Of a stretch of 35,931 bases of DNA, positions 12,082-34,071 are shown piece after piece. The notes beneath the pieces are model-generated. The model was not told the DNA's origin. It did not search any database and saw only the letters and a program-made list of their open reading frames with translations. Numbering within the stretch: position 1 is the first letter of the stretch; every line of letters starts with the position of its first letter. The position numbers were made by a program, and so were the translations under genes. The DNA comes from Pirellulales bacterium (GTDB taxonomy: Bacteria; Planctomycetota; Planctomycetia; Pirellulales; JADZDJ01), in contig DASRSD010000169.1 in the NCBI GenBank assembly GCA_035656635.1, positions 1 to 35,931 of the forward strand. The letters run 5' to 3'.

Positions 12082-12085
12082 ACTT

Positions 12086-14386: not shown

Positions 14387-14406
14387 CGTGAACAAGATTT
14401 ATCGGG

Positions 14407-17088: not shown

Positions 17089-17112
17089 GGTGCGCCTCCA
17101 GGAAACGAAATT

Positions 17113-18783: not shown

Positions 18784-18790
18784 ACGTGGG

Positions 18791-18819: not shown

Positions 18820-18950
18820 ATGTTTCTTGGGGGAAATTTTTAAACTCATTTATAACGGGATCGCCAGCGGTTCGGTACTGTGTCAGCGAATGGTATGGCA
18901 CCGTTGGGCACATGTCGGAGCAACCCGTATCAATGCACTAAACAATGGTT

Positions 18951-19553
18951 TTACACCGGCAGGGCCAAATAGATGCCACACAAGACCAACGCGGCCCCGG
19001 CGGATCGCAGCAGCCAGCCGGAGTTAGATTGTCGGGCGAATAATCCCATGCCGACGCCGACAAAGTGCAATAGTGCGGTCGCAGCCATAAAGCCTAATCC
19101 GTACATTAACCCAGATGCTGTGTGAGGCATTTCAGCCCCATGCGCATGGCCGTGGAACAAAGCAAACGTGCCGACAATCAACACGCTTACTAGCAGCGGC
19201 AGGTGAACTGAAGCAGCAATTAGAACTCCCAAAATCAATACCGACGCCACAATTCCTGGTTCTACAAAAGGAATGCTAATTGCCATCATGCCCAGCAACC
19301 CGCCCACGGCCATCACCAAAACAAATGCCAACGGCACAAGCCAAATGGCACGGCCACCGCGCTGCGCCGCCCACAATCCTACGCCAATCATCGCGCACAG
19401 ATGATCCAAGCCACCGAGCGGATGAGCCAGTCCACTGATCAATCCCCCGCTAGCATCGCCTAGTCCGGTATGCGCATACACCAGCGCTGGCGAGCCCAAA
19501 ATGAACAATGCTGGGATCAATCCCTGCCAGGAACGACGGTAATTGTTATTCAT
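18951..19553 (-). CDS. hupE: HupE/UreJ-family membrane protein, probable nickel transporter
   Basis: A 200-residue membrane protein with an N-terminal signal-like segment ending at A-L-V-Y-A, followed by H-T-G-L-G-D at the start of the mature protein, as in HupE proteins. The metal-binding signature H-P-L-G-G-L-D-H-L-C-A-M is present, and a second His cluster H-G-H-A-H-G-A-E. Six spans are likely. HupE and UreJ proteins move nickel into the cell for hydrogenase or urease; no urease gene is here, so hydrogenase is the natural client. The ATG at 19553 has GAGGT five bases upstream, better than the ATG at 19574. Last gene of the hydrogenase operon, 30 bases after hypB. No clear terminator follows it. 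Confidence 0.85.
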   Translation of the reverse strand: MNNNYRRSWQGLIPALFILGSPALVYAHTGLGDASGGLISGLAHPLGGLDHLCAMIGVGLWAAQRGGRAIWLVPLAFVLVMAVGGLLGMMAISIPFVEPGIVASVLILGVLIAASVHLPLLVSVLIVGTFALFHGHAHGAEMPHTASGLMYGLGFMAATALLHFVGVGMGLFARQSNSGWLLRSAGAALVLCGIYLALPV

Positions 19554-19583
19554 GTTAGACCTCGATGAAATCATTGTGAGAGA

Positions 19584-20276
19584 CTATATTTGCACTGGTT
19601 CCAGTGAATCAATTGCTTGTTCGCGACGCAAATTCAGCAACTCGAGCCAATCGTTCATTCCGTTTCCGGTTTTCGCGGACACCTCCAGGATTTGCATTCC
19701 AGGTCGAACCGCATGAATGTTCGCACGGGCTGAGTCGTGATTAAATTCGACAGCCTCGGCCAAATCCATCTTGGTAATGATGGCGATATCAGCGGTATTA
19801 AAAATAGTGGGATATTTTAGCGGCTTATCTTCTCCTTCGGTCACGGAAAATAGAACAGCCCGCAAGTCTTCGCCTAAATCGTAAGAGGCCGGACAAACTA
19901 AGTTACCGACGTTTTCAATAAATAAAAAGTCGAGCTCCGCAAGTTTCCAGTCGGCCAGCGCGGCGTGAATCATTTCCGCTTCCAAATGGCAAACTGTGCC
20001 GGTTATGATTTGTTTGATGGGCACTGCAGCACGGGCCAAGCGGCAAGCGTCGTTATCGGTGGCCAAGTCGCCGACCAGAGCCGCAACCCGGAAACGATCG
20101 CGGAGCGAGCGGAGCGTGACTTCCAGGAATGCCGTTTTTCCCGTCCCGGGGCTCGATACCAAGCTGATGACCGTGACGCCGGCTTGCTGAAACTCCTGGC
20201 GCAGCGCGCGAGCCACCACGTCGTTCTGCTTCAAAATTTTCGTACGGACTTCCACCAGGCGTGTTTGACCACTCAT
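19584..20276 (-). CDS. hypB: Hydrogenase nickel-incorporation GTPase HypB
   Basis: HypB is the GTPase that, with HypA, delivers nickel to the large-subunit precursor. The 230-residue protein has the P-loop S-S-P-G-T-G-K-T at residues 41-48 and the metal site of the GTPase domain, Cys96-His97 (V-C-H-L-E-A-E) and Cys128 (N-L-V-C-P-A). I-T-K-M-D-L-A is the guanine-specificity motif. The N-terminal C-x-x-C-G-C motif of the Escherichia coli protein and the His-rich tract of other HypBs are both missing, so it has no nickel store of its own; HupE may supply nickel directly. The start at 20276 overlaps the hypA stop as ATGA. The open frame extends to 20444 inside hypA, which is not a real extension. 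Confidence 0.9.
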   Translation of the reverse strand: MSGQTRLVEVRTKILKQNDVVARALRQEFQQAGVTVISLVSSPGTGKTAFLEVTLRSLRDRFRVAALVGDLATDNDACRLARAAVPIKQIITGTVCHLEAEMIHAALADWKLAELDFLFIENVGNLVCPASYDLGEDLRAVLFSVTEGEDKPLKYPTIFNTADIAIITKMDLAEAVEFNHDSARANIHAVRPGMQILEVSAKTGNGMNDWLELLNLRREQAIDSLEPVQI

Positions 20277-20620
20277 GATTCGATCTCCAACGCGGCCACC
20301 TCGAGTTCGCGACCGCTCACCACGTCGATCTCCGCGCTTTGGCAAACGGAGCAGCGGATGTTTTGAATTGACTCCGCTGGGCACTCTGCCCCACACACAT
20401 TGCACCGGACAACAATCGGCAGCTCGTCGATGACCAGTTCGCAATTTGCCAAATTCGTTCCCTCGCGAGCCAGGTCGTAGGCGGATGCCAGAGCTTGCTT
20501 GACTACGCCCGACAAAGCCCCGAGTTTAATATGTACCGCTTTAACGACGGCATTGCTGCGGCGTGCAGCTTCCTCTTCGACAAAATCGAGAACACACAGC
20601 GCAATCGACATTTCGTGCAT
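20273..20620 (-). CDS. hypA: Hydrogenase maturation nickel metallochaperone HypA
   Basis: HypA binds nickel at its N-terminal His2 (M-H-E-M-S-I) and passes it with HypB to the hydrogenase large subunit. The 115-residue protein keeps His2 and the structural zinc site Cys73-x2-Cys76 and Cys90-x2-Cys93. This is the normal length. The ATG at 20620 is chosen because nickel binding requires the Met-His start; longer open frames to 20707 overlap the preceding small gene. The stop overlaps the hypB start by four bases (ATGA). Confidence 0.92.
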   Translation of the reverse strand: MHEMSIALCVLDFVEEEAARRSNAVVKAVHIKLGALSGVVKQALASAYDLAREGTNLANCELVIDELPIVVRCNVCGAECPAESIQNIRCSVCQSAEIDVVSGRELEVAALEIES

Positions 20621-20648
20621 GATTTCGCTCGCCGTGGCGGCCACATCC

Positions 20649-20783
20649 TTACATTCGTTTGTATTTGAAATAACGAGGCAGTTCGAACAGGCTGACGAAC
20701 AAGCCAATTAAAATCGTCACTAACGTAATGAGCAACACGACAAATCCTAAAAGATATTCGCAGAAAATGGATAACGCTTTCAT
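20649..20783 (-). CDS. 44-residue single-span membrane protein of the hydrogenase operon
   Basis: The ORF starts MKALSIFCEYLLGFVVLLI, continues as a hydrophobic helix to about residue 34, and ends with L-P-R-Y-F-K-Y-K-R-M. The single span followed by a Tyr/Arg/Lys-rich tail suggests a membrane anchor with the tail inside the cell. Its ATG overlaps the stop of the maturation protease gene as ATGA, and GGAGG lies 10 bases upstream, so it is very probably translated. Small proteins with a similar layout and tail, which I recall as DUF6893, occur in actinobacterial hydrogenase operons, but the match is from memory. It could anchor the soluble hydrogenase or help HupE. Confidence 0.65.
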   Translation of the reverse strand: MKALSIFCEYLLGFVVLLITLVTILIGLFVSLFELPRYFKYKRM

Positions 20784-21373
20784 GTCGTCGTCTCCTCCAT
20801 AGGCACTTGTGGCAGAACCGCGCGGGCTGGTGCTGGCAAAACCAGATCGAGTTGTTGGTAATCGGCAATTCCGCCGGTGCGCAATTGCTCGAGAATTGAT
20901 TTTACGATTTCGACAGCTTCCCCCACTGCTTTTTCAACCCAGGCACTGAGCGCCGATTGCATTTCGTCCTCTGAATCCAGTGGGCTCGGTTCGCACCCGA
21001 CGATCAGGACCTTGTCGATGGTCGCTCTCATCGATTGGGCCAGATGCAGCACTTTGACCGGATCCATGGTGTGCGCATCCCACAACGATTGTGACTCCGG
21101 CGGAAGCGCACCAGCAACGGCCAGGTCGGGCTCCATGACATACAAAGCGCCCGGTGCGCCGCCGCGGGGAATGGCGTCAATCAAAATGATGTGGTCCCAT
21201 GGCTCCAGCAGCGCATAAGCCAGATCAATCCCACGAATGCCGAAGTCGCGTACCTGAACTCCGTCCGGCCAGTCGAGGCGGCCTAAGCGCTGCGCGACTT
21301 CGCACCCGAAGGCATCATCGCCAAAAAAGATGTTGCCGATGCCGGCGATCAAGATTTGTTTTATTGGATTCAT
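20780..21373 (-). CDS. [NiFe]-hydrogenase maturation protease (HyaD/HupD family)
   Basis: The enzyme cuts the C-terminal extension from the nickel-loaded large subunit. The 197-residue protein begins I-L-I-A-G-I-G-N-I-F-F-G-D-D-A-F-G, the family signature. Asp20 stands where HybD has Glu16, and Asp66 (L-I-D-A-I-P-R-G-G-A-P-G) and His101 (D-A-H-T-M-D-P) complete the three nickel-sensing ligands. About 30 residues at the C-terminus beyond the usual fold are Pro/Ala-rich. Its substrate is evidently HhyL, whose tail after the last motif is 24 residues. It starts 6 bases after the 107-residue gene and its stop overlaps the small membrane protein start. Confidence 0.9.
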   Translation of the reverse strand: MNPIKQILIAGIGNIFFGDDAFGCEVAQRLGRLDWPDGVQVRDFGIRGIDLAYALLEPWDHIILIDAIPRGGAPGALYVMEPDLAVAGALPPESQSLWDAHTMDPVKVLHLAQSMRATIDKVLIVGCEPSPLDSEDEMQSALSAWVEKAVGEAVEIVKSILEQLRTGGIADYQQLDLVLPAPARAVLPQVPMEETTT

Positions 21374-21379
21374 GGAAAA

Positions 21380-21703
21380 TTAACGCTGCGAAATATTGTC
21401 GGGCAAAATCATCGGTTCGACCTCATCGAGCGAAAAGAAAAACCGATGGCCTATTTGCCGCAGATGGCCAAAATCTTTCCCCGGATCGTCGTCGACCACG
21501 ACGGCCAGGTGAATGCGGTTTTCGTAATCTTGCTCGATGGCTTCAATCGTGGCAACTTTTCCGGCCAGTGCCAAATCCATGATGTCGCCATTTTGCTTGG
21601 GCCAAAGTCGTACCTTGCTGCCCGCGCGCAACTCCACGCCCAGGTGGCGCAACAAATCAACGGGCGGCCGCTGTTCCAATTCGTTCCAAGTAAAGGCATC
21701 CAT
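21380..21703 (-). CDS. Hydrogenase-operon accessory protein, 107 residues, unknown function
   Basis: A soluble 107-residue protein. After W-N-E-L-E-Q-R-P-P-V-D at the N-terminus come the beta-type stretches V-R-L-W-P-K-Q-N-G-D-I-M-D-L-A-L, A-T-I-E-A-I-E, and L-A-V-V-V-D-D-D-P-G-K-D, then H-R-F-F-F-S-L-D-E-V-E-P. The D-D-D-P-G and H-R-F-F-F segments are, as I recall, conserved in equivalents from other group 1h operons. The pattern suggests a small beta-barrel. No cysteine is present. It starts 4 bases after the 321-residue gene and ends 6 bases before the protease gene, so it belongs to the operon. Function not known. Confidence 0.7.
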   Translation of the reverse strand: MDAFTWNELEQRPPVDLLRHLGVELRAGSKVRLWPKQNGDIMDLALAGKVATIEAIEQDYENRIHLAVVVDDDPGKDFGHLRQIGHRFFFSLDEVEPMILPDNISQR

Positions 21704-21707
21704 TGGT

Positions 21708-22673
21708 TTATCGCTCGGTGGTTTGTAATCGGCTAAGGCCGCGAATGGCTCCGTGTAATTTGCGAAATTGATCGTCGGGCAAGTTTTCAGTGCGCGCGAG
21801 GATGGCCTGAGCGCGGTGATCGGAATTGCGGATTTGCTGTTTCTCTTCGTCCGACAAGGTCATCACCCGCAGCGACAAGATCTCGTCGATTTCCGTGGCG
21901 TCAAATAAATCACCCGGGCTTTCAGCCGCCACCTGTGGATAATCGTACAAAATGATGGGCGAGCAAAGGACGGTATCTCGATCGGGCACCTGGCCGACCA
22001 AAACCGGCCAGGTGCCCTGATTTTGCTGCCTGGCGGCAAGCTCGCGCCATGGCTCCGGCGGATCAATCGCCGAGACAAACTTACCGCCCTGGGTTTGCAA
22101 AATCGTGTGGGTGGAAACAAATGCAAACAATTGTGCCGCTTCGCTCGACAGCGGCAAGCTGCCGCAAGGTGAATTGTTTTCGATCACAATGGTCACGCTA
22201 AACAAACCGTCGTCAAGCTGGACAGCTGAGCAAGTTAGCGTGCCCTGCAAAGTTGCTGGCTGCGGTGTGACTTGATTCTCCCGGCGCGACGAGAAAGTTC
22301 CATCGCCGGAAAACGTGAAGTTGATCCGACGCGGCTGCTTGGGCAGGTCTTCGGCGGTGATCGGGTCGGTTTCGACTTTGCGTTCGATCGCTTCCAGGGC
22401 ATTCCCGTCTGCGCGCTCGATAAATTGCAAAAAGCGAACTTGAACTTCCAGCTGCGTATTCTTCTCGGCTTCTAGCAAGCCCTGTGCTTCTAGCAGACAC
22501 TGCGTCTGTATTCGAAATGATTCCGCCGCCGCTTGGTTTTCGCAAAAGTCACGCGGATAAACACAGCCAAACATCATCCGTTTTTCGTTTTTCACACAGC
22601 GGCGATAAGGATAGAGCAAGTAGCCTTCGTACAGCACGGCATTGACAATCTTGTCGACTTGGACAGTATTCAT
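21708..22673 (-). CDS. Hydrogenase-operon accessory protein, 321 residues, unknown function
   Basis: Starting at the ATG at 22673, which overlaps the upstream stop as ATGA, the protein is 321 residues. It opens with Y-E-G-Y-L-L-Y-P-Y-R-R-C, then K-N-E-K-R-M-M-F-G-C-V-Y-P, and R-I-Q-T-Q-C-L-L-E. The middle is beta-rich with S-V-T-I-V-I-E-N-N-S-P and F-V-S-T-H-T-I-L. The C-terminal part is helical (S-L-R-V-M-T-L-S-D-E-E-K-Q-Q-I). The Y-L-L-Y-P-Y-R and F-G-x-x-Y-P motifs are, to my memory, found in conserved unknowns of actinobacterial hydrogenase clusters. No enzyme motif was seen. The longer open frame to 22775 lies inside the upstream gene. Confidence 0.75.
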   Translation of the reverse strand: MNTVQVDKIVNAVLYEGYLLYPYRRCVKNEKRMMFGCVYPRDFCENQAAAESFRIQTQCLLEAQGLLEAEKNTQLEVQVRFLQFIERADGNALEAIERKVETDPITAEDLPKQPRRINFTFSGDGTFSSRRENQVTPQPATLQGTLTCSAVQLDDGLFSVTIVIENNSPCGSLPLSSEAAQLFAFVSTHTILQTQGGKFVSAIDPPEPWRELAARQQNQGTWPVLVGQVPDRDTVLCSPIILYDYPQVAAESPGDLFDATEIDEILSLRVMTLSDEEKQQIRNSDHRAQAILARTENLPDDQFRKLHGAIRGLSRLQTTER

Positions 22674-23371
22674 GGGCAAGCCTCCGCCGAAATCGCTGCC
22701 GTGGAATCCACCTTGCCAGATTGCACTGCTCCGTCGGATTGGCCGGCCAGCAACTGCTCCAGCGCGTGTTCCCACGTCGGCAACGAATGACGCCGTTTGT
22801 AGTCGGCCAGCTCCTCCAACACGTCACGGCGCAAACAAAGCCAGGCGGCGTTGGGATAGTAATGATCCATCATCGTGCGCCAAATTTGCACTGGCAGGCG
22901 GAACGTGGCTTCTTTGTCCCAAGAAAGCTGCATGACCTGCAGGCTGCCGTCGTCCGATTCATAAAACACCGTTCCGCTGAACAGCAGCGACAGCGGAATT
23001 TCGCCGTCGTCCAGCGCGTCGAAATACTTGGTGGCCGCCAAATTGAAATCGAACGAACAGGGCGCCGGCAAATCGACAACCACCGAAGCGGAAAACGCCG
23101 GCACCATGGCGCTGGTGTGCAGCCATAACATGCTGCGAAGTGTCTGGCTCCAGCGGTCGGGCGTGCCGAACAAATCGCGAAGTTTCCGATGAGCCGTGGC
23201 GTTGTAGCGGCGCTTGGTGGGCTCGATGCGAATTTGGCAGCGCAATGCGATGGCTTGGATGGCACTGTGGTGTTCGCCGGTTTGAGTGATCCGCAACTTG
23301 AACGCAATTTGCGGCACTGCGGCGTAAGCCACGGCTTCCGCCAATTCGACTTGAAAAGCGAGCTCAGGCAT
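22670..23371 (-). CDS. Hydrogenase-operon accessory protein, DUF6084-like
   Basis: A 233-residue soluble protein. It opens L-A-F-Q-V-E-L-A-E-A-V-A-Y-A-A-V-P, then A-L-R-C-Q-I-R-I-E-P, L-R-S-M-L-W-L-H-T-S-A-M-V-P, and F-D-F-N-L-A-A-T-K-Y-F-D-A-L in variant form (the sequence reads D-F-N-L-A-A-T-K-Y-F-D-A-L-D-D-G-E). The central L-L-L-F-S-G-T-V-F-Y region is also distinctive. These match my recollection of DUF6084, a family found only beside hydrogenase genes. Beta-rich with few cysteines, so a metal cluster is unlikely. The start overlaps the DUF5947-like gene by 8 bases and its stop overlaps the next start as ATGA. Function unknown. Confidence 0.75.
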   Translation of the reverse strand: MPELAFQVELAEAVAYAAVPQIAFKLRITQTGEHHSAIQAIALRCQIRIEPTKRRYNATAHRKLRDLFGTPDRWSQTLRSMLWLHTSAMVPAFSASVVVDLPAPCSFDFNLAATKYFDALDDGEIPLSLLFSGTVFYESDDGSLQVMQLSWDKEATFRLPVQIWRTMMDHYYPNAAWLCLRRDVLEELADYKRRHSLPTWEHALEQLLAGQSDGAVQSGKVDSTAAISAEACP

Positions 23372-24002
23372 GGCTACTTGCTTCCGTGGTGGTGGATTTC
23401 AAGTTCTCGAAGAACAGGTGGATGGCTTCCCACACTTTGGGTCCACCCGATAATCCCTTCCAATGGGATCGAATCAGCCCGACCAACTCGTAACAGCGAT
23501 CGATGGAAACCAGGTAATAATCGAATTGGGCCGTCGTGCGATTCACCAGCAACGCTTCGACGTCCGGCCGCATCTCATCTAAACGAGGATTCGCGGCGGC
23601 AATTTCCCGCCAGGCTTCGAGATCTAATAACGATTCAGTGGCGCCGGCCGGGCTGGGATAAACGGCAATCGTTCGGCCGTTGGACGAATTCCGAAAGAAA
23701 AATGCCAGATTGATGGGAATCAGCAGGCTGTCCCATTGGGCATCGCTTAACTGAAAATCGATTAACCGTGCTGCCCATTGCGGCACGCGGCGAAACCGGG
23801 CGCCTTGTTGGCTGCTAAACAACACCGCACAGGCCTGGCATGCGCACATCAACCGACGGCTGCCCGGCTCGACGAGGTGTTCGTGCCGCGAGGCAAGTGG
23901 AGCGCTGCACAAATCGCATTTTTCGACGGGCGCAGTCGGTGGCCGTATCATGCGACGCAGCACGCCAATGGTTCCTCGAGTGATCGGAGCGGCGGCAGTC
24001 AT
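23364..24002 (-). CDS. Hydrogenase-operon accessory protein, DUF5947-like, with cysteine-rich metal site
   Basis: A 212-residue protein whose N-terminal part carries Cys29-x2-Cys32 (K-C-D-L-C-S) and, after H-E-H-L-V-E, Cys53, Cys55 and Cys58 (M-C-A-C-Q-A-C). Two C-x2-C pairs at this distance form a zinc-ribbon or rubredoxin-like site; iron is also possible. The rest is alpha/beta with W-R-E-I-A-A-A-N-P and, near the end, Y-Y-L-V-S-I-D-R-C-Y-E-L-V-G and V-W-E-A-I-H-L-F-F. I assign it to DUF5947 from memory of hydrogenase clusters. If the site is rubredoxin-like, it could carry electrons or protect the Fe-S clusters during assembly. It starts 30 bases after the Nfu-type gene. Confidence 0.75.
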   Translation of the reverse strand: MTAAAPITRGTIGVLRRMIRPPTAPVEKCDLCSAPLASRHEHLVEPGSRRLMCACQACAVLFSSQQGARFRRVPQWAARLIDFQLSDAQWDSLLIPINLAFFFRNSSNGRTIAVYPSPAGATESLLDLEAWREIAAANPRLDEMRPDVEALLVNRTTAQFDYYLVSIDRCYELVGLIRSHWKGLSGGPKVWEAIHLFFENLKSTTTEASSHA

Positions 24003-24032
24003 GGGGTGATGATTCTTTTCGGTGTTTTTAAG

Positions 24033-24608
24033 TCAATCTGCTGATGCGCAGGCCGTGGCGGGCAGGCCGTTGCTTTTGGCCAGCGCAGACAGCGAAACAA
24101 AACCTTGCGGCGCACTCGATGCAGTGTCGACCAGGCCTTCGACTTCCAGCCGAACCACGTCCGGCGCGGCAGCATAAATAGCTTGTTCAATGGTAGTTTG
24201 CATCGTGACCGCGGAGGACGGACAGCCATGGCAACTGCCTTGCATGCGGAGCCGAACCACGCCGTTATCGATGCTTAGTAATTCAACTTCACCGCCATGG
24301 GAGCGCAAATAGGGCCGTACCTTATCGAGCGCGCTCTCCACGCGTGTTTGCAAATCGACCGGATGCAAATCGTAAAGCAGCAGCAAACTCGAAACTAAAT
24401 CGTCGTCCGTCAGTTTTTGTACGACGTCAGGACCTTTCGCCTGGCGAACTGTTTCAATCAAGCGCGCGACTGCGGCGCCATGATAATCGAGCAGCGCTTG
24501 AATAATTTCTTGCAGCCGTGAGTTCGTGGCCGGATCGCCGAATTCGTCGATTTCGCGAATCAACGATTCGAGGCGTGCAAAATCACCGGTGTTATTTTCG
24601 GTTTTCAT
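24033..24608 (-). CDS. NifU C-terminal-domain (Nfu-type) iron-sulfur scaffold protein
   Basis: A 191-residue protein. The first 90 residues are helical and of unknown fold. Residues about 90-160 form an Nfu domain: V-E-S-A-L-D-K-V-R-P-Y-L-R-S-H-G-G-E-V-E-L, then Cys126-x2-Cys129 in G-S-C-H-G-C-P-S-S. Nfu domains carry a [4Fe-4S] cluster between two monomers and hand it to client proteins. Inside this operon, 3 bases after hhyL, its likely client is HhyS with its three clusters. Similar two-part Nfu proteins occur in other group 1h operons. The N-terminal part may be a client-docking domain. Confidence 0.85.
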   Translation of the reverse strand: MKTENNTGDFARLESLIREIDEFGDPATNSRLQEIIQALLDYHGAAVARLIETVRQAKGPDVVQKLTDDDLVSSLLLLYDLHPVDLQTRVESALDKVRPYLRSHGGEVELLSIDNGVVRLRMQGSCHGCPSSAVTMQTTIEQAIYAAAPDVVRLEVEGLVDTASSAPQGFVSLSALAKSNGLPATACASAD

Positions 24609-24611
24609 ACG

Positions 24612-26411
24612 TTATGAATGGGCTTGCGCTCCGAACATGGGAACGTGACGAACTTCGTTTAACAGTTTGCCGTTGCCGTTGTACATATGCACGCCGCAGG
24701 GCAGGCAAGGATCGAAACTACGGACCGCGCGCATAATGTCGATGCCTTTAAAATTGTCAGGCCCGTTCTCCTCGAAAATGGGCGTGTTCTGCACGGCATC
24801 TTCGTAAGGCCCCGGCGTGCCGTAACTATCCCGCGGAGCGGCGTTCCAGGGTGTGGGTGGATACGGATGGTAATTGGCGATTTTGCCATTGCGAATGACC
24901 GAATGATGCGACAGCACGCCGCGTACGGCCTCGTGGAAGCCGCAGCCGATGGCTTCGTCGGGCACTTTGAATTCGGCCCAGGTTTTGGTATCGCCGGAGT
25001 GGAGCGTGGCAATCGCTTGTTCGACGAAATATAGCGCGCACGCTGCCGCATACGCCTGAAAGTATGTTCGTGCGCGGTCGCGTTCGATGGCATTGCTCCA
25101 CTTGGGAATTTTCCATTCGAATTCGACTTCCGGCAGCAAAGCGGTTTTGGGCAGCATAATTTTGACACCGCCATTGCCGGCTTTGACGTAGCCGATGTCG
25201 ACCAGCCCGGAAAGTGCGGTCGACCATAGTCGGGCAATGGGGCCGCCGCCGGTGTCCAGCGCCAAGTGGTCGCCGGTGCGCTTGTCGAACCAGCGTGGCG
25301 ACATGACCCAGGTGTATTTGCTTTTGAAATCGCGTTTTTGCGGCCGGGGCGTAGTGGTTTGGTTCCAGGGATGGCGACGGTCGACGGGATTGCCGAGCGG
25401 GTCCTTTTCGACAAACATTTCCGCATTCTGCCAATCGTCGTAATACGAACTGCCGAGCAGAATTCGGATTCCCAAATTGATGTCGACCAAGTTGTTGGTA
25501 ACTAGTTGCCCGTCGACAATGACGCCGGGGGTAACGAACATGTCTTTACCCCACTTACTCATGTTCTGGTAGCGGTAATCGCACGTGTCGGGGTTGTTGA
25601 ACGCGCCCCAACAACCCAATAGAACGCGACGCTGGCCGACTTTTTCGTAACCGGGGAGCGCCTCGTACCAGAAGTCGAATAAATCTTCGTGCAGCGGCAG
25701 GCACTTTTTCATGAACTCGACATAGCGCATCAACCGTACGAGGTAATCGGTAAACAGTTGCACCGTCGGCACGGTTCCCACGCCGCCAGGATAAAGCGTC
25801 GATGGATGCACATGCCGGCCTTCCATCAGGCAGAACATTTCGCGCGTGTAGCGGCTAACCTGCAACGTTTCGCGGTAGAATTCCCCCGTGAACGGATTGA
25901 GCGCCCGCATAATATCGCCAATGGTTTTGTAGCCATGCCATTTGGCGCCGCGGGCTTCGGTTTTGTTGGCTTTTTCCAGCACGCCGGGGTTGGTTTCCTT
26001 GACCATTTGCTCGCAGAAATCGACGCCGACCAAGTTATCTTGAAAAATATTGTGGTCGAACATGTACTCGGCGGCTTCGCCCAGGTTAATGATCCATTCG
26101 CCCAGCGGCGGCGTTTTGACACCGAAAGCCATGTTTTGCGCATACACGGCGCAAGTGGCGTGATTATCACCGCAGATGCCGCAAATGCGGCTGGTGATAA
26201 AGTGCGCATCGCGCGGGTCTTTGCCCTTCATGAAGATGCTGTAGCCACGGAAAATCGACGACGTGCTGTAGCATTCCACAACCTCGCGGTTAGCAAAATC
26301 GATTTTGGTGTAGATGCCCAGACTGCCCACGATGCGTGTGATAGGATCCCACGACATTTCGACCAAGTTTCGGCTTTTGGTCGTTGGGGCGCGGTCGGTG
26401 ACAGTGGCCAT
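24612..26411 (-). CDS. hhyL: Group 1h [NiFe]-hydrogenase large subunit
   Basis: The 599-residue catalytic subunit holds the Ni-Fe(CN)2CO centre. The L1 motif R-I-C-G-I-C gives Cys77 and Cys80, with His84 after it; the L2 motif D-P-C-L-P-C-G-V-H gives Cys569 and Cys572. All four Ni ligands are therefore present. The final 24 residues after His575 (M-Y-N-G-N-G-K-L-L and so on) would be removed by the protease encoded at 20780. D-P-C-L-P-C-G-V-H-M-Y is the form I recall from the actinobacterial-type enzyme of Ralstonia. The ATG at 26411 is preceded by AAGGAG with a 9-base spacer; an upstream ATG-type extension to 26441 lacks one. It is 82 bases after hhyS and 3 bases before the Nfu-type gene. 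Confidence 0.95.
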   Translation of the reverse strand: MATVTDRAPTTKSRNLVEMSWDPITRIVGSLGIYTKIDFANREVVECYSTSSIFRGYSIFMKGKDPRDAHFITSRICGICGDNHATCAVYAQNMAFGVKTPPLGEWIINLGEAAEYMFDHNIFQDNLVGVDFCEQMVKETNPGVLEKANKTEARGAKWHGYKTIGDIMRALNPFTGEFYRETLQVSRYTREMFCLMEGRHVHPSTLYPGGVGTVPTVQLFTDYLVRLMRYVEFMKKCLPLHEDLFDFWYEALPGYEKVGQRRVLLGCWGAFNNPDTCDYRYQNMSKWGKDMFVTPGVIVDGQLVTNNLVDINLGIRILLGSSYYDDWQNAEMFVEKDPLGNPVDRRHPWNQTTTPRPQKRDFKSKYTWVMSPRWFDKRTGDHLALDTGGGPIARLWSTALSGLVDIGYVKAGNGGVKIMLPKTALLPEVEFEWKIPKWSNAIERDRARTYFQAYAAACALYFVEQAIATLHSGDTKTWAEFKVPDEAIGCGFHEAVRGVLSHHSVIRNGKIANYHPYPPTPWNAAPRDSYGTPGPYEDAVQNTPIFEENGPDNFKGIDIMRAVRSFDPCLPCGVHMYNGNGKLLNEVRHVPMFGAQAHS

Positions 26412-26493
26412 AATGGCAATCTCCTTTATCTCATAAATCAATTTTTTGTTGTCCGAATTTGCGCGATTTTTGTCAGGAAACGCGCTTGATCTT

Positions 26494-27561
26494 CTACCTT
26501 GGCGAATAAGATGTTGGTTTGTAACCGGTTGTCAATTCCGGTCGGCGGTGACGCCACTTCGGTTCTTTATTGTCGGAACGGTTGGTGATGCGTCGCAGGG
26601 ACCGAATGATCCTTCCATACACGCTGATCGCAGTGGACGACATGTGTGCCCCAGCCGGCTCATCCATGAACGGCATGAATTTGTCGGGAAAGCCTGGCAT
26701 CGTGCAGCCGATGCAAATACCTCCCACATTGGGACAGCCACCAATGCCATCCATCCATCCGCGCTTGGTGACGTTGCAATTCACGACGGGTCCCCAACAG
26801 CCGAGCTTTACTAAGCATTCCGGCTTGCCATATTCTTTGGCAAAATTAGCTTCTTCGTAGTATCCGCCACGGTCGCAACCTTCGTGTACGGTGCGCGCAC
26901 TGAATAACCAAGTGGGACGGTGTTGTTCGTCCAGTGGAATCATCGGCGCCAGTCCCGCCACCTGGTACAGCAGGTACAGCAATGTTTCCATGAAATTATC
27001 CGGCTGAACCGGACAACCCGGCACGTTGACAATCGGCAGGCCGGCCTTCGATTTCCAATTCCACCCCAGGTAATCGCACAATCCCATGCAGCCAGTCGGG
27101 TTTCCTTCCATGGCGTGGATGCCGCCGAAGGCCGAACAAGTTCCGGCCGTGACAATGGCCAGCGCTTTGGGCGCCAGGCGATCAATCCATTCGTTGGTGG
27201 TAATTGGCTGGCCTGTTTTCGCATCCGTTCCCAGCGCGGCCCAATAGCCTTCCTTCTTAATCTTTTCGTTCGGGATCGACCCTTCCACAACCAGTACGAA
27301 CGGATCCAGCTCGCCCCGTTCGGCCATGTACCAATATTTCATGAATTCATCGCCAACCTCGTAGGCCAATACCGGATTGTGCAAATGCACCTTGGGCAAC
27401 CCGGGAATGGCGCCCATCACAACTTCTTCCACGCTGGGGAGCGTAGCGGCGGTAATCGAAACCGAATCGCCATCGCAGCCCAGACCGGCGGTGATCCACA
27501 GAATATGAACTTCTTTGACCGCCGGTTGTCGTTTGGCCTGAATTGTGGATTTGGGCGCCAT
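26494..27561 (-). CDS. hhyS: Group 1h [NiFe]-hydrogenase small subunit
   Basis: The 355-residue electron-transfer subunit carries three Fe-S clusters from the active site to the surface. There is no Tat signal peptide; the protein starts with a short Lys-rich segment and then V-H-I-L-W-I-T-A-G-L-G-C, so it stays in the cytoplasm or at its membrane. Proximal-cluster ligands are Cys29, Cys142 and Cys183, and Asp32 in C-D-G-D replaces the usual fourth cysteine, the hallmark of the oxygen-insensitive group 1h enzymes. His226, Cys229, Cys249 and Cys255 fit the distal cluster, and Cys262, Cys276, Cys283 and Cys286 the medial one. The C-terminal 55 residues are Arg-rich, with no membrane span. GGAGG lies 5 bases before the ATG at 27561. 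Confidence 0.95.
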   Translation of the reverse strand: MAPKSTIQAKRQPAVKEVHILWITAGLGCDGDSVSITAATLPSVEEVVMGAIPGLPKVHLHNPVLAYEVGDEFMKYWYMAERGELDPFVLVVEGSIPNEKIKKEGYWAALGTDAKTGQPITTNEWIDRLAPKALAIVTAGTCSAFGGIHAMEGNPTGCMGLCDYLGWNWKSKAGLPIVNVPGCPVQPDNFMETLLYLLYQVAGLAPMIPLDEQHRPTWLFSARTVHEGCDRGGYYEEANFAKEYGKPECLVKLGCWGPVVNCNVTKRGWMDGIGGCPNVGGICIGCTMPGFPDKFMPFMDEPAGAHMSSTAISVYGRIIRSLRRITNRSDNKEPKWRHRRPELTTGYKPTSYSPR

Positions 27562-27665
27562 AGGAACCTCCCTTAATCAGACTGCCATATGAATTTGTCC
27601 GAATCGCTTTCAACGAAGAATGTTCTTTTTCCTTCCGCTCCAATGCCCGCTGCGAGCGCCATTGC

Positions 27666-28481
27666 CTAAGCACTTCCCTTTTCGGGCGCTGCGTGCCCGT
27701 TTTTCAACACCGCCACAAAAAATACGCCTCCCAGCGCGTTGCCAATTGTGGTGCACAACAAAAAGTAACCGTATTGAGCCAGCGTGGTCTGGCCGCCGGC
27801 AAAGTATCCGCCCAGCACCTCCACGCTGCCCAGCACGGCATGATGCGAATGCGACAGGCCAATCGCCGCCGTGACAATCCAAATAATGATGATCTGGCTG
27901 GTTGTGTCGCGCGCCGCTGCTACTAGCCAAGAAACCAATCCCATCAGCCAACCCGCCATTACTCCGCTGAGCAGAATGACCCAGCCCGGATGCTCGACGA
28001 TCCTCGTTGAAATTGCTTCGAATGCGCTGGCTTCCGCAACTTTCATCGAGGTGGCAACCCAAACGATCCAGGCGGCACACACTGCGGCGCCGATCACATT
28101 TCCGATCAGCACGACGACCCATAACCGGGCCACTTTGCCGAAGGTCGTTTTGCCGGCTAATAGCGGCAAAATGGCTAAAGTAGTTTGCTCGGTGAACAAC
28201 TCCGAACGACCCAAGATCACGACGATAAAGCCGAACGAATACATCAGGGCCATGAGCAGCTCGAAGACCAAACGGTCGAGAGCTCCTTCGGCCAGCGTTT
28301 TGACAATTCCCAAGAGCAACAAGCTCAAGCCAATTTCGATGCCCGCCGCAAATGCCGAAATCATCAACCGCCCCATGGGGCGCTCCAGCGCATCGACCCC
28401 TTCGGCAACTTCCTGGCGAAAAATTCGGTTCGACGATTTTTTCGGCGCCAGGTCGTCGGGGTTTTTGATGGGGGTGGGCAT
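27666..28481 (-). CDS. Formate/nitrite transporter (FNT) family channel, YfdC-like
   Basis: A 271-residue membrane protein with about six spans and a 40-residue polar N-terminus. A-A-G-I-E-I-G-L-S-L-L-L-L-G and G-R-S-E-L-F-T-E-Q-T-T at about 93-103 are typical of the YfdC-like branch of FNT channels. The pore histidine region reads G-L-S-H-S-H-H-A-V-L-G instead of the E-H-S-x-A-N of FocA. Members of this family pass formate, nitrite, hydrosulfide or other small weak acids, but this branch has no settled substrate. It lies inside the operon, 68 bases after hypE and 104 bases before hhyS. No ribosome binding site was recognised before the ATG at 28481. Confidence 0.85.
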   Translation of the reverse strand: MPTPIKNPDDLAPKKSSNRIFRQEVAEGVDALERPMGRLMISAFAAGIEIGLSLLLLGIVKTLAEGALDRLVFELLMALMYSFGFIVVILGRSELFTEQTTLAILPLLAGKTTFGKVARLWVVVLIGNVIGAAVCAAWIVWVATSMKVAEASAFEAISTRIVEHPGWVILLSGVMAGWLMGLVSWLVAAARDTTSQIIIIWIVTAAIGLSHSHHAVLGSVEVLGGYFAGGQTTLAQYGYFLLCTTIGNALGGVFFVAVLKNGHAAPEKGSA

Positions 28482-28549
28482 GAAATGGCATATTCGCTGA
28501 CCTGAAAATCAAAATTCTTTTTAAGCGTGAGACTAGTTGATACGTGCTT

Positions 28550-29638
28550 TCAGCAAATTCGTGGTAATTGTTCGCCCGCTAACATGGTGACCACGCGCTC
28601 GCCGCCGATGAGCGTGCGCTGCACCACCATGCCAGGGTGATCGTCGACTACCTCGCCAATGATGGCCGCGTTGGCCCCCAGGGAATGACTGCGCATTGCC
28701 TGCAAAAGTTGAGCCGCATCTTCCGCCTGGGCGACGGCAATCAACTTTCCTTCATTGGCCACGTAGAGCGGATCCAACCCGAGCATTTCGCAGGCCGCAT
28801 GCACTTCCGGACGAATTGGCACGGCGGCTTCGTCCACTTTGATGCCTACCCTAGCGGCACTGGCAAGTTCGTTCAGAGTGCTGGAGACGCCGCCCCGGGT
28901 GGGATCGCGCATCCAGCGGATCGATGGGCAGGCTTGGAGCATGGTTCGCGCTAAATCATGCAGCGGCGCAGTATCGCTTTCCAGCACAGTCTCGAATTCG
29001 ATTCCTTCGCGCACGGACATAATCGCGATGCCATGATCGGCAATGGTTCCAGAAATTAAAATTTGGTCTCCGGCCTTGACGTTGCGGATCGAAAGCCGCC
29101 GGCCTGGCGGTGTTATTCCGATTCCCGAAGTAATAATAAAAATTTGGTCACCCTTGCCACGATCGACGACTTTGGTGTCGCCTGTGACCAATTGCACCCC
29201 GGCTTGGTTACAAGCCGCGCGCATGGAAGCTACGATGCGATGCAAATCTTCCAGCGGCAAGCCTTCTTCCAGAATGAATGCGGCAGAAAGGAACATCGGC
29301 GTGGCCCCGCCTACAGCCAAATCGTTCACCGTGCCATGAACCGCCAGCCGGCCGATATCGCCGCCGGGAAAAAATAACGGCCGCACGACAAAGGCATCGG
29401 TCGTGAACGCAATTCGGCCTGCCTCGTGGGCGTAGCCGTTCAGACTAAAAGTTGCTTGATCTTCCAGTTCCGCAAGCAAAGGATTGTCAAAGCCTGGCAG
29501 AAACACTTTTTGAATCAAATCCGCACTCAACATGCCTCCACTGCCATGACCCAACAGAATTCGGTCGTACCGGTTTTGCGGAACCGGACAGGTTGTAAAG
29601 ACCGCTGGATCGTCGATGGTGGGAATCGGCGTGGCCAT
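28550..29638 (-). CDS. hypE: Hydrogenase maturation protein HypE
   Basis: HypE takes the carbamoyl group from HypF on its C-terminal Cys and dehydrates it to a thiocyanate, the source of the cyanide ligands. The 362-residue protein has the PurM-like ATP-binding landmarks G-H-G-S-G-G at about 30-35, F-T-T-D-A-F-V-V-R-P, D-I-G-R-L-A-V-H-G-T-V-N-D-L-A and M-R-D-P-T-R-G-G-V. It ends P-R-I-C with the catalytic Cys as last residue. The start at 29638 overlaps the previous stop as TAATG, and GGAGG lies about 10 bases before it. The open frame to 29761 lies inside the isomerase gene and is not part of HypE. Confidence 0.95.
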   Translation of the reverse strand: MATPIPTIDDPAVFTTCPVPQNRYDRILLGHGSGGMLSADLIQKVFLPGFDNPLLAELEDQATFSLNGYAHEAGRIAFTTDAFVVRPLFFPGGDIGRLAVHGTVNDLAVGGATPMFLSAAFILEEGLPLEDLHRIVASMRAACNQAGVQLVTGDTKVVDRGKGDQIFIITSGIGITPPGRRLSIRNVKAGDQILISGTIADHGIAIMSVREGIEFETVLESDTAPLHDLARTMLQACPSIRWMRDPTRGGVSSTLNELASAARVGIKVDEAAVPIRPEVHAACEMLGLDPLYVANEGKLIAVAQAEDAAQLLQAMRSHSLGANAAIIGEVVDDHPGMVVQRTLIGGERVVTMLAGEQLPRIC

Positions 29639-30282
29639 TAAATTACATCCTCCGCGCCACGAATTACGTGGATTAAATCCCACATGATGTGCAACAACGT
29701 TTCTTGCGTTTCCTGGATGCGCGGAATGCTGAAACTGGGGACCACAAAACAATGATCGCACAGGGGAGGCATTTTTCCGCCGTCACGGCCCGCATAGCCT
29801 ACCGTCAGCATGTTCATTTCCCGAGCAGCTTGCAGGGCACGATTGACATTGGCTGACTTACCGCTGGTGGAAATGCCCAGGGCAATGCCGCCATTGCGTC
29901 CCAGCAATTTTAGTTGCTTCACATAGGCCAGCGAAAAGTCCATGTCATTGCCGATCGCAGTCAAAACTGCGGTGTCGTTATTTAACGAAATGGCTGGCAG
30001 GCCCGTGCGCTTTTCGATGATCGGATGCATGCACTCTACCGCCATGTGGGCGGCATCACACGAACTACCGCCGTTGCCGAATACCAATAAGTGCGCTCCG
30101 CGATCAAACGCATCGGCCATGGCTACGCAGCACTCGACAATTCGCGAGGCGTTTTCACTGAAGAATTTTTGTTTGACGTCGATTACTTCGTTGCACTGCC
30201 GCATAACTTTGGCCGCGAGTTCGTCCGATGAGTACATAGCAGCCTGCGGCGGCAGTTGCACCGCTTCCGTCATGGGTGTCAT
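29638..30282 (-). CDS. GmhA-like SIS-domain sugar phosphate isomerase
   Basis: A 214-residue SIS-domain protein related to sedoheptulose-7-phosphate isomerase. Landmarks are [16 protein letters not shown] (phosphate loop), [28 protein letters not shown] and the C-terminal [11 protein letters not shown]. It lies between hypD (ATGA overlap at 30279-30282) and hypE (TAATG overlap), so it is translationally coupled to hyp genes. No other heptose gene is nearby. Such genes recur at this place in group 1h operons, to my memory; a role in carbon monoxide ligand supply or in cofactor chemistry is only a guess. Start chosen at 30282 because the open frame to 30375 lies inside hypD. Confidence 0.85.
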
Positions 30283-31427
30283 GCGATACCTCCAATAGGC
30301 ACTAGCGGCTCGGGTATGGCAGCGTGAGTACGACACGCTTCCAAGTGTCGGCCGTAGGCATAGTAAGCCGCGCAAGCCCCTTCACTGGAGACCATGGTTG
30401 CTCCTAGCGGCGTTTGTGGCGTGCAAGTTTTTCCAAATGCGGGGCATTGGTGCGGTTTCATTAGTCCGCGCAAAATTCGGCCGCTGATGCAAATGCTGGA
30501 TTCCTGGGTTTCAATGTCTTTGACTTCAAACAGCCGCTCGGCATCGTAATTCCGATACTCATACTTCAGCTTGTAGCCGCTCTTGGGAATAATGCCGACC
30601 CCGCGCCACTTGCGATCGGTGATTTCAAAAATTTCGTCGATTAGTTTTTTCGATTCCAAATTGCCGCTGCGCTGCACCGCACGGCTGTATTGATTTTCGA
30701 CCGTGGCCGAACCCGCCTCCAATTGGCGCAGGGTCATCAACACGCCTTCGAGCATGTCGACCGGTTCGAATCCGGTGATCACAATGGGCACACGATATTG
30801 TCGGGCAATCGGCTCGTATTCTTCGTAGCCCATCACGGTGCAGACATGGCCCGGTCCTAAAAATCCCTGCACCCGGTTGCCCGGCGACTGCAAAATGGCA
30901 GTGATCGAAGGAGGCACCAGCACGTGCGAAACCAACACGCTGAAATTCGTTAACTTGCGCCGACTTGCTAACCACACGGCCATGGCATTGGGCGGGGCAG
31001 TCGTTTCAAAACCGATGGCGAAAAAGACCACATGCCGATTGGGGTTTGCCGCCGCTAAGTTGACCGCATCGAGCGGCGAGTAAACAATGCGCACGTCGGC
31101 GCCTTGGCTTTTCAGTTGCAACAGGTCGCCGCGCGAACCGGGCACGCGCAACATGTCTCCAAACGAAGTGAAAATAACCTCTGGCCGCGCCGCAATGGCA
31201 TGCGCGCGATCGATCATCTCCAGAGATGTTACGCACACCGGGCAACCGGGGCCGTGCACCAATTCCACCCCGTCGGGCAGCATTTTGTCGACGCCGTACT
31301 TTACAATCGTGTGCGTCTGTCCGCCGCACACTTCCATAATGACCCACGGTTGGGTGACGGTACGGCGGATGGCGTCGGTCAGTCTTTTGACCGTTTGGGC
31401 ATCGCGGTATTCGTCCAGGTATTTCAT
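30279..31427 (-). CDS. hypD: Hydrogenase maturation protein HypD
   Basis: HypD with HypC forms the scaffold on which Fe(CN)2CO is built. The 382-residue protein has the first Cys motif [10 protein letters not shown] (Cys34), G-P-G-C-P-V-C-V-T (Cys62 and Cys65), and G-F-E-T-T-A-P in the second domain. The C-terminal Cys set, from S-I-C-I-S-G-R to [16 protein letters not shown], binds the [4Fe-4S] cluster. Normal length. The ATG at 31427 overlaps the hypC stop by four bases, and its own stop overlaps the isomerase start as ATGA. Confidence 0.95.
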
Positions 31428-31675
31428 GATGATGGCGCCTGTAACTCGTCGAGCTGGTTCATGCTGGCCAGAAACTCGAACACGCGACCCGCTTCGTCCT
31501 CATCGATTTTCGATAGGGCAAAACCGACATGCACCAGGACATATTGGCCAAGGCGAACATCGGAAACGTGTTCCAGGCAAACGCGCTTTGAGACGCCGCC
31601 AAAATCGACCTTGCCCATCAGCACGTCGTGTTCCTCGTAGGTTTCAATTACTTTGCCGGGAATGCCGAGGCACAT
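31424..31675 (-). CDS. hypC: Hydrogenase assembly chaperone HypC
   Basis: HypC carries the Fe(CN)2CO unit from HypD to the large subunit, using Cys2. The 83-residue protein begins M-C-L-G-I-P-G-K-V, the family signature with Cys2, and keeps V-D-F-G-G-V and [19 protein letters not shown] lies upstream of the ATG at 31675. It follows hypF by 32 bases and overlaps hypD. Confidence 0.95.
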
Positions 31676-31707
31676 AAAATTTCATTTCCTGGAAATCGGT
31701 TTGCTTT

Positions 31708-34071
31708 TCATTTTTGAGTTAACTGCGGCTCGCGCTGACGGCGGACCGGTGCTGGCTCGCTGGTTTGCAGGTTAGGCATTTGTTGGTGTGCCGCTGCCAC
31801 AGCCAATTGGCCGAGCGACAATCCGCCGTCGTTTGGGGGGACCAATCGGTGCCGATACACCTGAAATCCATCGTCAGTCAACCGCATCGCTACTTCTTCA
31901 GTGAGAATCGCATTCATAAATACCCCGCCGCTCAGCACGACGGAACTGTATCCACAGGAATTGCGAATTCGCTTGCATACATCGATGATGATGGCTGCCA
32001 GCGTGGCATGGAAACGTCGAGCGATACGGTAGATGTCGACGTGATCATGAACATCTTTCGCCACGGCTTGAATCATGGGCCGTGTATCAATGACCAACGG
32101 GCTCGATTCAACTTGGAATGGATAGGAATTCTCCTCAGTCGCCTTGTGGCAATGCCATTCCAATTGCATCGCCGCTTGTCCTTCGAATGTTGTGAAGTCG
32201 CACAGGCCCGCAATTGAGGCGACCGCATCAAACAGCCGACCCGCGCTGGAAGTGAGGGGACAGTTAACGCGCCGTGAAATTATGGTTTTTGTGGCGTTAA
32301 CGACGGAGGACGAAATGCGGTTTTCGATTAACGACAAGTCGCAATGTGCGTCCATCAAATATGCCAGCGCCATGCGCCACGGCTCGTGGATGGCCTTGTC
32401 GCCGCCGGGCATCGGCACATTGCGCAAATGCGCCGCACGGCAAAACTGCTGGTAATCGCCGACCAAAAACTCGCCGCCCCAAATCGTCGCTTCCCCCGTC
32501 GCTTCGTCCTGGCCGTATCCCGTGCCGTCGAAAGTTACCCCGATTACTGATTCAGTCAATCGATTTTCCGCCATGCAACTAGCCATGTGGGCATGATGAT
32601 GCTGCACCGGGAATGTTGGCAGATGATCTCGTTGGGCTCGCCGGCGCGCGTATCTTGTTGAGGCATAGTCGGGATGCAAATCATGAACGATCAAGTCCGG
32701 CGCGAATTGGAAAAGTTCTTCATAAAGATCAATATCGCGCTCGAATTGTTGACTTGCCTCAAAATCCTCCAAATCGCCGAGGTGATGGCTGAGAAACGCT
32801 TGCCGATTGCGCCCCAGCGCGAACACGCCCTTGAATTGCCCACCGACGGCCAATATGGGCGCAACGCATGGTTGCGGTAAACGAATTGGCTGCGGTGCAT
32901 ACCCGCGCGATCTTCGAATCGGCAGTTCCGCATGGCCTACGATTCGTGTTACGGAATCGTCGCATCGAACATGAATTGGCCGATTGTGCCGCAGAAAAAT
33001 ATCGGCAACTGTTCTCAAGCGAACAAGCGCATCTGTATCTTGATAGGCGATCGGTTCATGCGACCGATTGCCGCTGGTCATAACCAGCGGGACATCACCC
33101 ATGTTTCTTAGCAAAAGATGATGCAAAGGCGTATAGGGAAGCATAACGCCCAAATATGGATTGCCTGGCGCGACTGCTTCACACACAGAGCTCGACGTAT
33201 TCTCTCGGCGGCGCAAAAGAACAATTGGCCGCTGAGGCGAGTTGATAAATGCGCTTTCTTCGGGAGTGATGAAGCAAAGTTTTTCGGCGGCTTCAATGCT
33301 GCCCACCATGACGGCCAGCGGCATTTCTTCCCGCTGTTTTCGCCGCCGCAATGAGCAAACCACTTCTTGATTGCGGGCATCACAAACCAGGTGATAACCG
33401 CCCAAACCTTTCAGGGCTCCAATTTGGCCGTTTTGCAGGACGGAAACAAAAGTAGCGAGTGGATCGCTCGTTTCAATCCGATTTCCCGCTGAATTAACTA
33501 ATTCCAATTGTGGCCCACACTTGGGACAGGCGGTGGGCTGAGCATGAAAGCGGCGATCGTTTGGATCATCGTATTCGGTTTGGCACTCGGCGCACATTTC
33601 AAACTGCGCCATCGTGGTGCGCCGCCGGTCATAGGGAGCGCCTTGAATAATTGTCAGACGCGGTCCACAGTTCGTGCAATTTAAAAATGGATAGCGGAAA
33701 CGCCGGTTGCGCGGATCAAATAACTCGGCCAAGCAGTCTTGGCAAACTGCCACGTCCGGTGAGAAGTAAATCGCCTCTTGGCCCGTGATTGCACTATGTG
33801 CGATGGAAAATCGCTGGTCGCGCTGGGCGTATTGCTTTGCGAGTGGACGCCACGAGACAGCGTCGATTTTGGCGAGCGGTGGTGCATCTTGTTCCAGTCG
33901 CAATCGGAATTTATTTAAGGCTGCGTTTTCGCCTTCAATTTCGATGTAAACCGAACCCGCATCATTCCTTACTAATCCTTGCAGCCCCAGATCGGAAGCC
34001 AGCCGGAAAACAAAGGGTCGAAATCCGACCCCCTGTACGATACCGGTTACGGTAATCGCCCGGCACTCCAT
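31708..34071 (-). CDS. hypF: Carbamoyltransferase HypF
   Basis: HypF turns carbamoyl phosphate and ATP into carbamoyl-AMP and loads HypE. The 787-residue protein shows the domains in order: acylphosphatase (residues 1-90, V-Q-G-V-G-F-R-P-F-V-F-R), two zinc fingers (C-x2-C pairs at about 110-190, for example C-Q-D-C and C-A-E-C), a YrdC-like domain (about 200-380, with L-K-G-L-G-G-Y-H-L-V-C-D), and a Kae1-like domain (about 395-765, with H-H-H-A-H-M-A and F-D-G-T-G-Y-G). Full length. GGAGG lies 9 bases before the ATG at 34071. This is the first gene of the operon. The last 20 residues are Gln/Pro/Arg-rich. Confidence 0.95.
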   Translation of the reverse strand: MECRAITVTGIVQGVGFRPFVFRLASDLGLQGLVRNDAGSVYIEIEGENAALNKFRLRLEQDAPPLAKIDAVSWRPLAKQYAQRDQRFSIAHSAITGQEAIYFSPDVAVCQDCLAELFDPRNRRFRYPFLNCTNCGPRLTIIQGAPYDRRRTTMAQFEMCAECQTEYDDPNDRRFHAQPTACPKCGPQLELVNSAGNRIETSDPLATFVSVLQNGQIGALKGLGGYHLVCDARNQEVVCSLRRRKQREEMPLAVMVGSIEAAEKLCFITPEESAFINSPQRPIVLLRRRENTSSSVCEAVAPGNPYLGVMLPYTPLHHLLLRNMGDVPLVMTSGNRSHEPIAYQDTDALVRLRTVADIFLRHNRPIHVRCDDSVTRIVGHAELPIRRSRGYAPQPIRLPQPCVAPILAVGGQFKGVFALGRNRQAFLSHHLGDLEDFEASQQFERDIDLYEELFQFAPDLIVHDLHPDYASTRYARRRAQRDHLPTFPVQHHHAHMASCMAENRLTESVIGVTFDGTGYGQDEATGEATIWGGEFLVGDYQQFCRAAHLRNVPMPGGDKAIHEPWRMALAYLMDAHCDLSLIENRISSSVVNATKTIISRRVNCPLTSSAGRLFDAVASIAGLCDFTTFEGQAAMQLEWHCHKATEENSYPFQVESSPLVIDTRPMIQAVAKDVHDHVDIYRIARRFHATLAAIIIDVCKRIRNSCGYSSVVLSGGVFMNAILTEEVAMRLTDDGFQVYRHRLVPPNDGGLSLGQLAVAAAHQQMPNLQTSEPAPVRRQREPQLTQK

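Follow-up and report, generated by a model that had tools for sequence, protein, structure and literature searches.

A complete group 1h [NiFe]-hydrogenase gene cassette of a planctomycete that is aerobic and probably heterotrophic

The stretch of DNA analysed here, called the window below, comprises bases 1-35931 of contig C169 (DASRSD010000169.1) from the genome of a Pirellulales bacterium (G000), an assembly of 4.9 Mb in 190 contigs that is 95.6% complete with 2.0% contamination. It carries a hydrogenase cassette of 17 genes, all located on the minus strand and read from 34071 down to 18951, in the order hypF, hypC, hypD, a SIS-domain gene, hypE, an FNT-family gene, hhyS, hhyL, a NifU-domain gene, DUF5947, DUF6084, two genes named here unkA and unkB, a HycI-type protease gene, hypA, hypB and hupE. 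Very probably, the 17 genes make up a complete group 1h (Hhy) [NiFe]-hydrogenase cassette of an aerobic, probably heterotrophic planctomycete, in which the oxidation of hydrogen would serve maintenance or mixotrophy and whose lineage would have gained these genes. The features are as follows.

31708..34071, minus strand: hypF, carbamoyltransferase for CN ligand synthesis (Pfam HypF_C_2, zf-HYPF, Sua5 and acylphosphatase)
31424..31675, minus strand: hypC (PF01455, 1.9e-25)
30279..31427, minus strand: hypD (PF01924, 1.9e-153)
29638..30282, minus strand: SIS-domain protein, GmhA-like, between hypD and hypE (PF13580)
28550..29638, minus strand: hypE (TIGR02124, 449 bits for a cut-off of 252)
27666..28481, minus strand: FNT-family (formate/nitrite) channel (PF01226, 1.5e-48, 166 bits for a cut-off of 34.6)
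26494..27561, minus strand: hhyS, group 1h small subunit (5aa5_A, 629 bits)
24612..26411, minus strand: hhyL, group 1h large subunit, taken from its ATG start (5aa5_C, 1141 bits)
24033..24608, minus strand: NifU-domain protein, short HhyE form (PF01106 at residues 90-154 of 191)
23364..24002, minus strand: DUF5947, predicted metal-binding protein (PF19372, 1e-72)
22670..23371, minus strand: DUF6084 (PF19562, 3.5e-89)
21708..22673, minus strand: unkA, conserved in hhy loci and unmatched in Pfam and NCBIfam
21380..21703, minus strand: unkB, no Pfam or NCBIfam match
20780..21373, minus strand: HycI/HyaD-type maturation protease (PF01750, 4e-15)
20273..20620, minus strand: hypA (PF01155, 2e-28)
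19584..20276, minus strand: hypB (PF02492, 1.7e-18)
18951..19574, minus strand: hupE, nickel permease type (PF04955, 4.5e-57)
18840..18950, no strand: stretch in which synteny with the genus mate G001 has ended (last match ends at 18839)

The original prediction, made from the DNA letters, had counted 18 genes between 18951 and 34071; 17 were counted there and no further gene was seen. The grouping of the hydrogenase genes on a single strand was borne out, each named gene lying at its predicted place, and the description of their ends as mostly overlapping or closely spaced holds as well. Indeed, 12 of the 16 joins span no more than 32 bases: in six the two genes share 1-8 bases, four are at most 10 bases apart and two measure 30 and 32 bases. 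Four gaps are wider, namely hypE-FNT (68 bases), FNT-hhyS (104), hhyS-hhyL (52) and HycI-hypA (159). The frame listed for hhyL opens with TTG at 26441; judging from the sequence, the gene most likely starts at an ATG (26411) that AAAGGAG precedes by nine bases, and with this start the gap to hhyS increases from 52 to 82 bases. The Pfam cut-off is passed by 15 of the 17 cassette proteins, the exceptions being unkA and unkB, which have homologues at the corresponding positions of loci from other phyla; on these grounds the gene group is far beyond chance.

The type of the enzyme can be deduced from its two subunits. In phmmer comparisons with the PDB, HhyL and HhyS are best matched by the chains HofG (5aa5_C) and HofK (5aa5_A), the next chains reaching only 157 and 161 bits, respectively. 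The CDGD motif of HhyS is the same in 5aa5_A, whereas 1cc1 has CTGC at this position. Asp32 of HhyS thereby replaces the second cysteine of the first CxxC of 1cc1, and it is found in all 80 rows that are ungapped there, out of 81 rows in the alignment, window included. Such an exchange of one cysteine ligand of the proximal Fe-S cluster for Asp is what we take, from the work on 5aa5, to be the signature of group 1h. In HhyL, the cysteine pairs of the NiFe site, C87/C90 and C579/C582 in the numbering of the listed frame, are 99-100% conserved in 86 rows.

A scan of genomes with HhyL yielded at least 577 confirmed relatives, the best 80 of which were used for the comparisons of loci. These 80 belong to Acidobacteriota, Pseudomonadota, Chloroflexota, Verrucomicrobiota, Actinomycetota and, in five cases, Planctomycetota. 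They share 76-84% identity with the HhyL of the window, and include Edaphobacter and Granulicella, both named as group 1h carriers in the available text of PMC8027828. In a tree of 68 rows (87 collected, minus 21 close relatives dropped by hand, plus the window and HoxG), HhyL is found among 66 other 1h-like rows and within a 27-row set of Acidobacteriota, Planctomycetota and order relatives supported by a Shimodaira-Hasegawa-like approximate likelihood ratio test (SH-aLRT) value of 89. The rows nearest to it by path are acidobacterial, and HoxG forms a very long outgroup whose branch is too long for rooting. In a second tree of 40 rows, taken from the same 68, HhyL is weakly paired (82/58) with one acidobacterial row. 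With 5aa5 as the top PDB match by a wide margin, the Asp32 signature and this position among 1h-like rows, the assignment of the hydrogenase to group 1h is supported at the sequence level, in a comparison set from which groups 1l and 1m are absent. As a side observation, the hhyS genes of a C. necator plasmid (L153, 10471-11526) and of a Mycobacterium intracellulare plasmid (L154, 8188-9243) are annotated 'hydrogenase expression protein HypE'; the HhyS of the window matches them at 77% and 69%.

The maturation set announced by the original prediction proved complete. All hyp genes are present, hypF reaching 805 bits with TIGR00143 (cut-off 466) and hypB sharing 35-72% identity with the frames of other hhy loci, while the HypD of the window is the single match found in the whole genome. 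A comparable clustering can be observed on plasmid pHG1 of C. necator H16, the source of HofGK (5aa5), where BLAST detected matches to hhyS, hhyL, nifU, DUF5947, DUF6084, unkA-unkB, the protease, hypF, hypC, SIS, hypD, hypE, hypA and hypB, with identities of 79% for HhyL and 77% for HhyS. This plasmid differs from the window in that its hyp genes are located downstream and that unkA and unkB are combined in one frame. Moreover, the 28.6 kb stretch of pHG1 contains no BLAST match to the FNT gene or to hupE of the window, and a HoxN-type nickel transporter gene is present instead.

The genes accompanying hhySL are the usual group 1h set of many phyla, as seen by sequence comparison. The order hhyS-hhyL-nifU-DUF5947-DUF6084-unkA-unkB-HycI is conserved in 57 of the 80 loci, and it is also that of pHG1 and of an M. 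intracellulare plasmid. Seven loci (L040, five Verrucomicrobiota loci and L082) contain all eight genes in another order, and in 16 fewer than eight were seen, mostly in short or cut stretches, even if L064 offers 20.6 kb of sequence and still lacks a match to three of the eight. No BLAST match to the accessory genes was obtained beside the hhyS-hhyL pairs of two order relatives, L147 (G018) and L150 (G024). In a third order relative (L190 of G119), read by eye, a protease-like gene seems to be the sole companion of the pair.

The first of these companions, the NifU-domain protein, has a counterpart encoded beside the Hhy hydrogenase of M. smegmatis. According to the available text of PMC6883350, Hhy activity in that species requires this protein, HhyE, whose C-terminal part bears two CxxC motifs, and truncated forms exist in some species; the window protein, ending soon after its NifU domain, resembles these truncated forms. 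The long form with two C-terminal CxxC was seen in L010 and L154. In DUF5947, C29, C32, H40, H42, C53, C55 and C58 are invariant in 52 rows and all lie within the N-terminal 60 residues. Its predicted model is confident (mean predicted local distance difference test score 87.5) and gave zero Foldseek matches in the PDB at E <= 0.001. The best VIA-align hit, a B-box protein with Z 4.0 over 42 residues of the Cys/His end, followed by L24e-like ribosomal proteins, was too weak to be retained. That DUF5947 replaces the missing metal domain of HhyE is only conjecture, since M. intracellulare possesses both a long NifU protein and DUF5947. A match to unkA is present in 74 of 85 hhy loci, and unkA and unkB share one frame in 33 of 80. 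The unkA-unkB model from L079 resembles PetP of cytochrome b6f in Foldseek (about 73 columns, E 0.008, template modelling (TM) score 0.78 by target; PetP rows at E 0.008-0.009). This likeness, which we assume to lie in the unkB part of the model, is kept as a lead; three Foldseek rows below E 0.001 were discarded, their TM being about 0.1. Neither DUF5947 nor DUF6084 was among the matches listed by the literature search.

Two genes of the upstream half deserve separate mention. The SIS protein is closest in the PDB to phosphoheptose isomerases (top chain 1tk9, 127 bits); it belongs to the SIS family but remains under the cut-off of TIGR00441 gmhA (144 bits for 209). Being matched in 49 of 85 hhy loci, this gene is a frequent, unexplained companion. 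The FNT channel is the least ordinary feature of the cassette. Its nearest PDB chains are NirC (59 bits) and LCIA (48 bits), and with 82 bits it falls under the cut-off of 232 of the subfamily model TIGR00790, used as a FocA/NirC test. In Gemmataceae RYN_437 (L040), Schlesneria (L010), Singulisphaera GP187 (L069) and the order relative G020, hypF-C-D-E lies upstream of hhyS-hhyL as in the window. The FNT gene is inserted between hypE and hhyS in L010, L040 and G020, which with the window makes four of the 11 planctomycete hhySL loci examined by BLAST (L190, read by eye, stands outside these 11). L040 differs by two FNT genes and by nifU placed ahead of hhyS, L069 and L005 by having no FNT match, and the L010, L069 and G020 stretches by having no SIS match.

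Among 75 other group 1h loci, FNT was matched once (L078, 29% identity). At E <1e-30, this gene was found in seven of the 246 genomes of the host order, three with hhyL and four without, and two further hhyL genomes have no such FNT. The idea of a hydrogenase-specific gene was consequently dropped, FNT being present also in genomes of the order that lack hhyL. Its neighbourhoods in G114, G252, G170, G223 and G018 reveal, by eye, no common partner; in the order relative G114, it lies (L186, 6967-7830) beside a seeming type II CRISPR locus (8196-12678, by eye). A literature search combining formate nitrite transporter, hydrogenase and hypE returned no paper, the slash spelling having possibly escaped it. 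It is rather improbable that the Hhy operon of some planctomycetes is built differently, with FNT as an anion channel importing formate or bicarbonate for the CO/CN ligand pathway or for charge balance during hydrogen oxidation, and with DUF5947 as a novel metal protein that takes part in electron transfer and replaces the HhyE tail.

The planctomycete nature of the host, left conditional in the original prediction, was established by a 25-row RpoB tree, in which G000 is located inside Planctomycetota (100/100) and grouped with a Schlesneria MAG (metagenome-assembled genome; 98/98), while the rows of Gemmataceae and Isosphaeraceae lie elsewhere in the tree. Full-length hhyL was found in five of the 246 genomes of the order, that of the window included, and a second copy in G018 and G024. 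This frequency agrees with the less than 3% of genomes given for group 1h in such phyla by the available text of PMC8027828. The same text already lists group 1h genes in Planctomycetes and describes a clade shared by acidobacteria and planctomycetes, Singulisphaera acidiphila among them, so that the claim of a trait little described in these bacteria is only partly right. Literature searches pairing hydrogenase with planctomycetes, Pirellulales or Singulisphaera gave, among the matches listed and with subscription papers largely uncovered, no measurement of hydrogen uptake in a planctomycete culture. The cassette is genuine, its type was rightly named, and it is of an ordinary kind, in a phylum already known for group 1h, if rarely.

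The genomic site bears on the origin of the cassette. Positions 9104-18839 of the window are collinear, with gaps, with the genus mate G001 at 76-84% DNA identity, and this match breaks off 112 bases short of the hupE end (18951). In G001, a gene resembling lspA by eye adjoins the Rrf2 gene, and its match in G000 is found on contig C45, beside seeming kdp genes (by eye). Because the synteny stops at 18839 and the lspA-like match lies on C45, the old neighbourhood is broken here. No clean insertion site could be reconstructed, given this match on C45 and the end of the window contig 1.9 kb beyond hypF. The Rrf2-family regulator gene (18036-18470), beside the operon and conserved in the genus mate, and a sigma-70-like site (11/12; 18819-18791, minus strand) inside the block conserved with G001 seem to belong to the old neighbourhood and not to the cassette. 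At the contig end, 35649-35912 encodes the C-terminal end of a potassium transporter (K_trans_C); the seeming kdp genes beside the lspA-like gene of C45 would also be potassium genes. Elsewhere in the window, an 815-residue open frame (7221-9668) has no Pfam match at E 0.01. Neither hhyL nor hypD was found in G001 or in the family mate G002, one genome of each rank being searched. Since hhyL is rare in the order, a gain in the G000 lineage, at least relative to G001, is favoured.

On this basis, the following mechanism can be proposed. By sequence, HhyL and HhyS are the catalytic pair; maturation and nickel supply fall to HypA-F, the HycI protease and HupE, and the NifU-domain protein, DUF5947, DUF6084, unkA and unkB make up the usual group 1h accessory set. 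The enzyme would oxidize hydrogen and deliver electrons to the aerobic respiratory chain, perhaps with the help of the accessory proteins; matches to haem-copper oxidase in G000 speak for an aerobic host. The outcome would be maintenance energy or mixotrophic growth, not autotrophy, in a lineage that, compared at least with its genus mate, would have gained the cassette. No match to the RuBisCO large chain was obtained in any of the six genomes searched, which makes autotrophy on air by this route (atmospheric chemosynthesis) unlikely; hydrogen therefore most likely serves as a supplement or helps the cell to survive, as far as gene content can tell. A form I CO dehydrogenase was also considered and rejected: none of the four MoCoBD_1 proteins in G000 contains AYxCSFR, presumably its motif.

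Several results weigh against this reading or parts of it. The highest HhyL identity (84%) is with a Chloroflexota-labelled MAG (L060), and the placement of the window HhyL is fixed by no starred branch in either tree. The C-terminal CxxC pair of HhyE is absent from the 191-residue NifU protein, by sequence and by Pfam. Operon borders could not be taken from a promoter scan, set aside with 10 promoter-like sites for 10.4 in shuffles. To these are added the affinity of a characterized homologue and a tree test, both discussed below. A terminator scan was likewise set aside (30 sites for 21.7 in shuffles, standard deviation 5.1).

The affinity of the window enzyme for hydrogen is unreadable from its sequence. 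According to the available text of PMC7174314, the group 1h enzyme of Ralstonia eutropha (C. necator) is of low affinity, with a Km of 3.6 µM, and the strain is unable to use atmospheric hydrogen, while that of Methylacidiphilum is of high affinity when membrane-associated. The class by itself is thus no sufficient ground for the use of trace or atmospheric hydrogen that the original prediction drew from it. There is perhaps one chance in several that the enzyme is of low or middle affinity and works on hydrogen made locally by fermenting or nitrogen-fixing neighbours rather than on that of air. The identities with pHG1 and the short form of the NifU protein point in this direction; the nearest rows of the HhyL trees, mostly acidobacterial, point away from it, mesophilic acidobacteria scavenging hydrogen in pure culture (available text of PMC8027828).

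An equally minor share of belief goes to an old vertical planctomycete trait, lost across most of the order. An approximately unbiased (AU) test leaves one clade of eight chosen planctomycete HhyL copies unrejected (p 0.147; L064, L147 and L150 stood outside the constrained group and L190 was absent from the tree), which bears on the polarity of gain and loss. With this value, and with a HoxG branch unfit as a root, the HhyL tree fails as proof of horizontal transfer. The order hypFCDE-FNT-hhySL, common to the window, G020 and L010 and nearly so to L040, also fits inheritance. Against it stand the presence of the operon in only five of 246 genomes and the free trees, in which the planctomycete copies are dispersed, on weakly supported branches, between those of Acidobacteriota. 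A binning or assembly error bringing in an operon of another phylum such as Acidobacteriota, for which the acidobacterial neighbours of HhyL, the 190 contigs and the 2.0% contamination could be invoked, is extremely improbable in view of the synteny of the left half of the contig with the genus mate, which marks it as planctomycetal, of hypC, hypD and hypE having their closest counterparts in the planctomycete loci L005, L040 and L069 (66-78% identity), and of the FNT gene equally placed in other planctomycete loci.

The favoured reading, a group 1h cassette gained by the G000 lineage and used as a supplement, would add another planctomycete lineage to the candidate hydrogen oxidizers, in an order where hhyL is rare. 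DUF5947, DUF6084, unkA, unkB and the SIS protein are conserved unknowns that constitute a standing question for group 1h systems in general. Finally, G000 and G001 form a natural pair within a single genus, the first possessing the cassette and the second lacking it.

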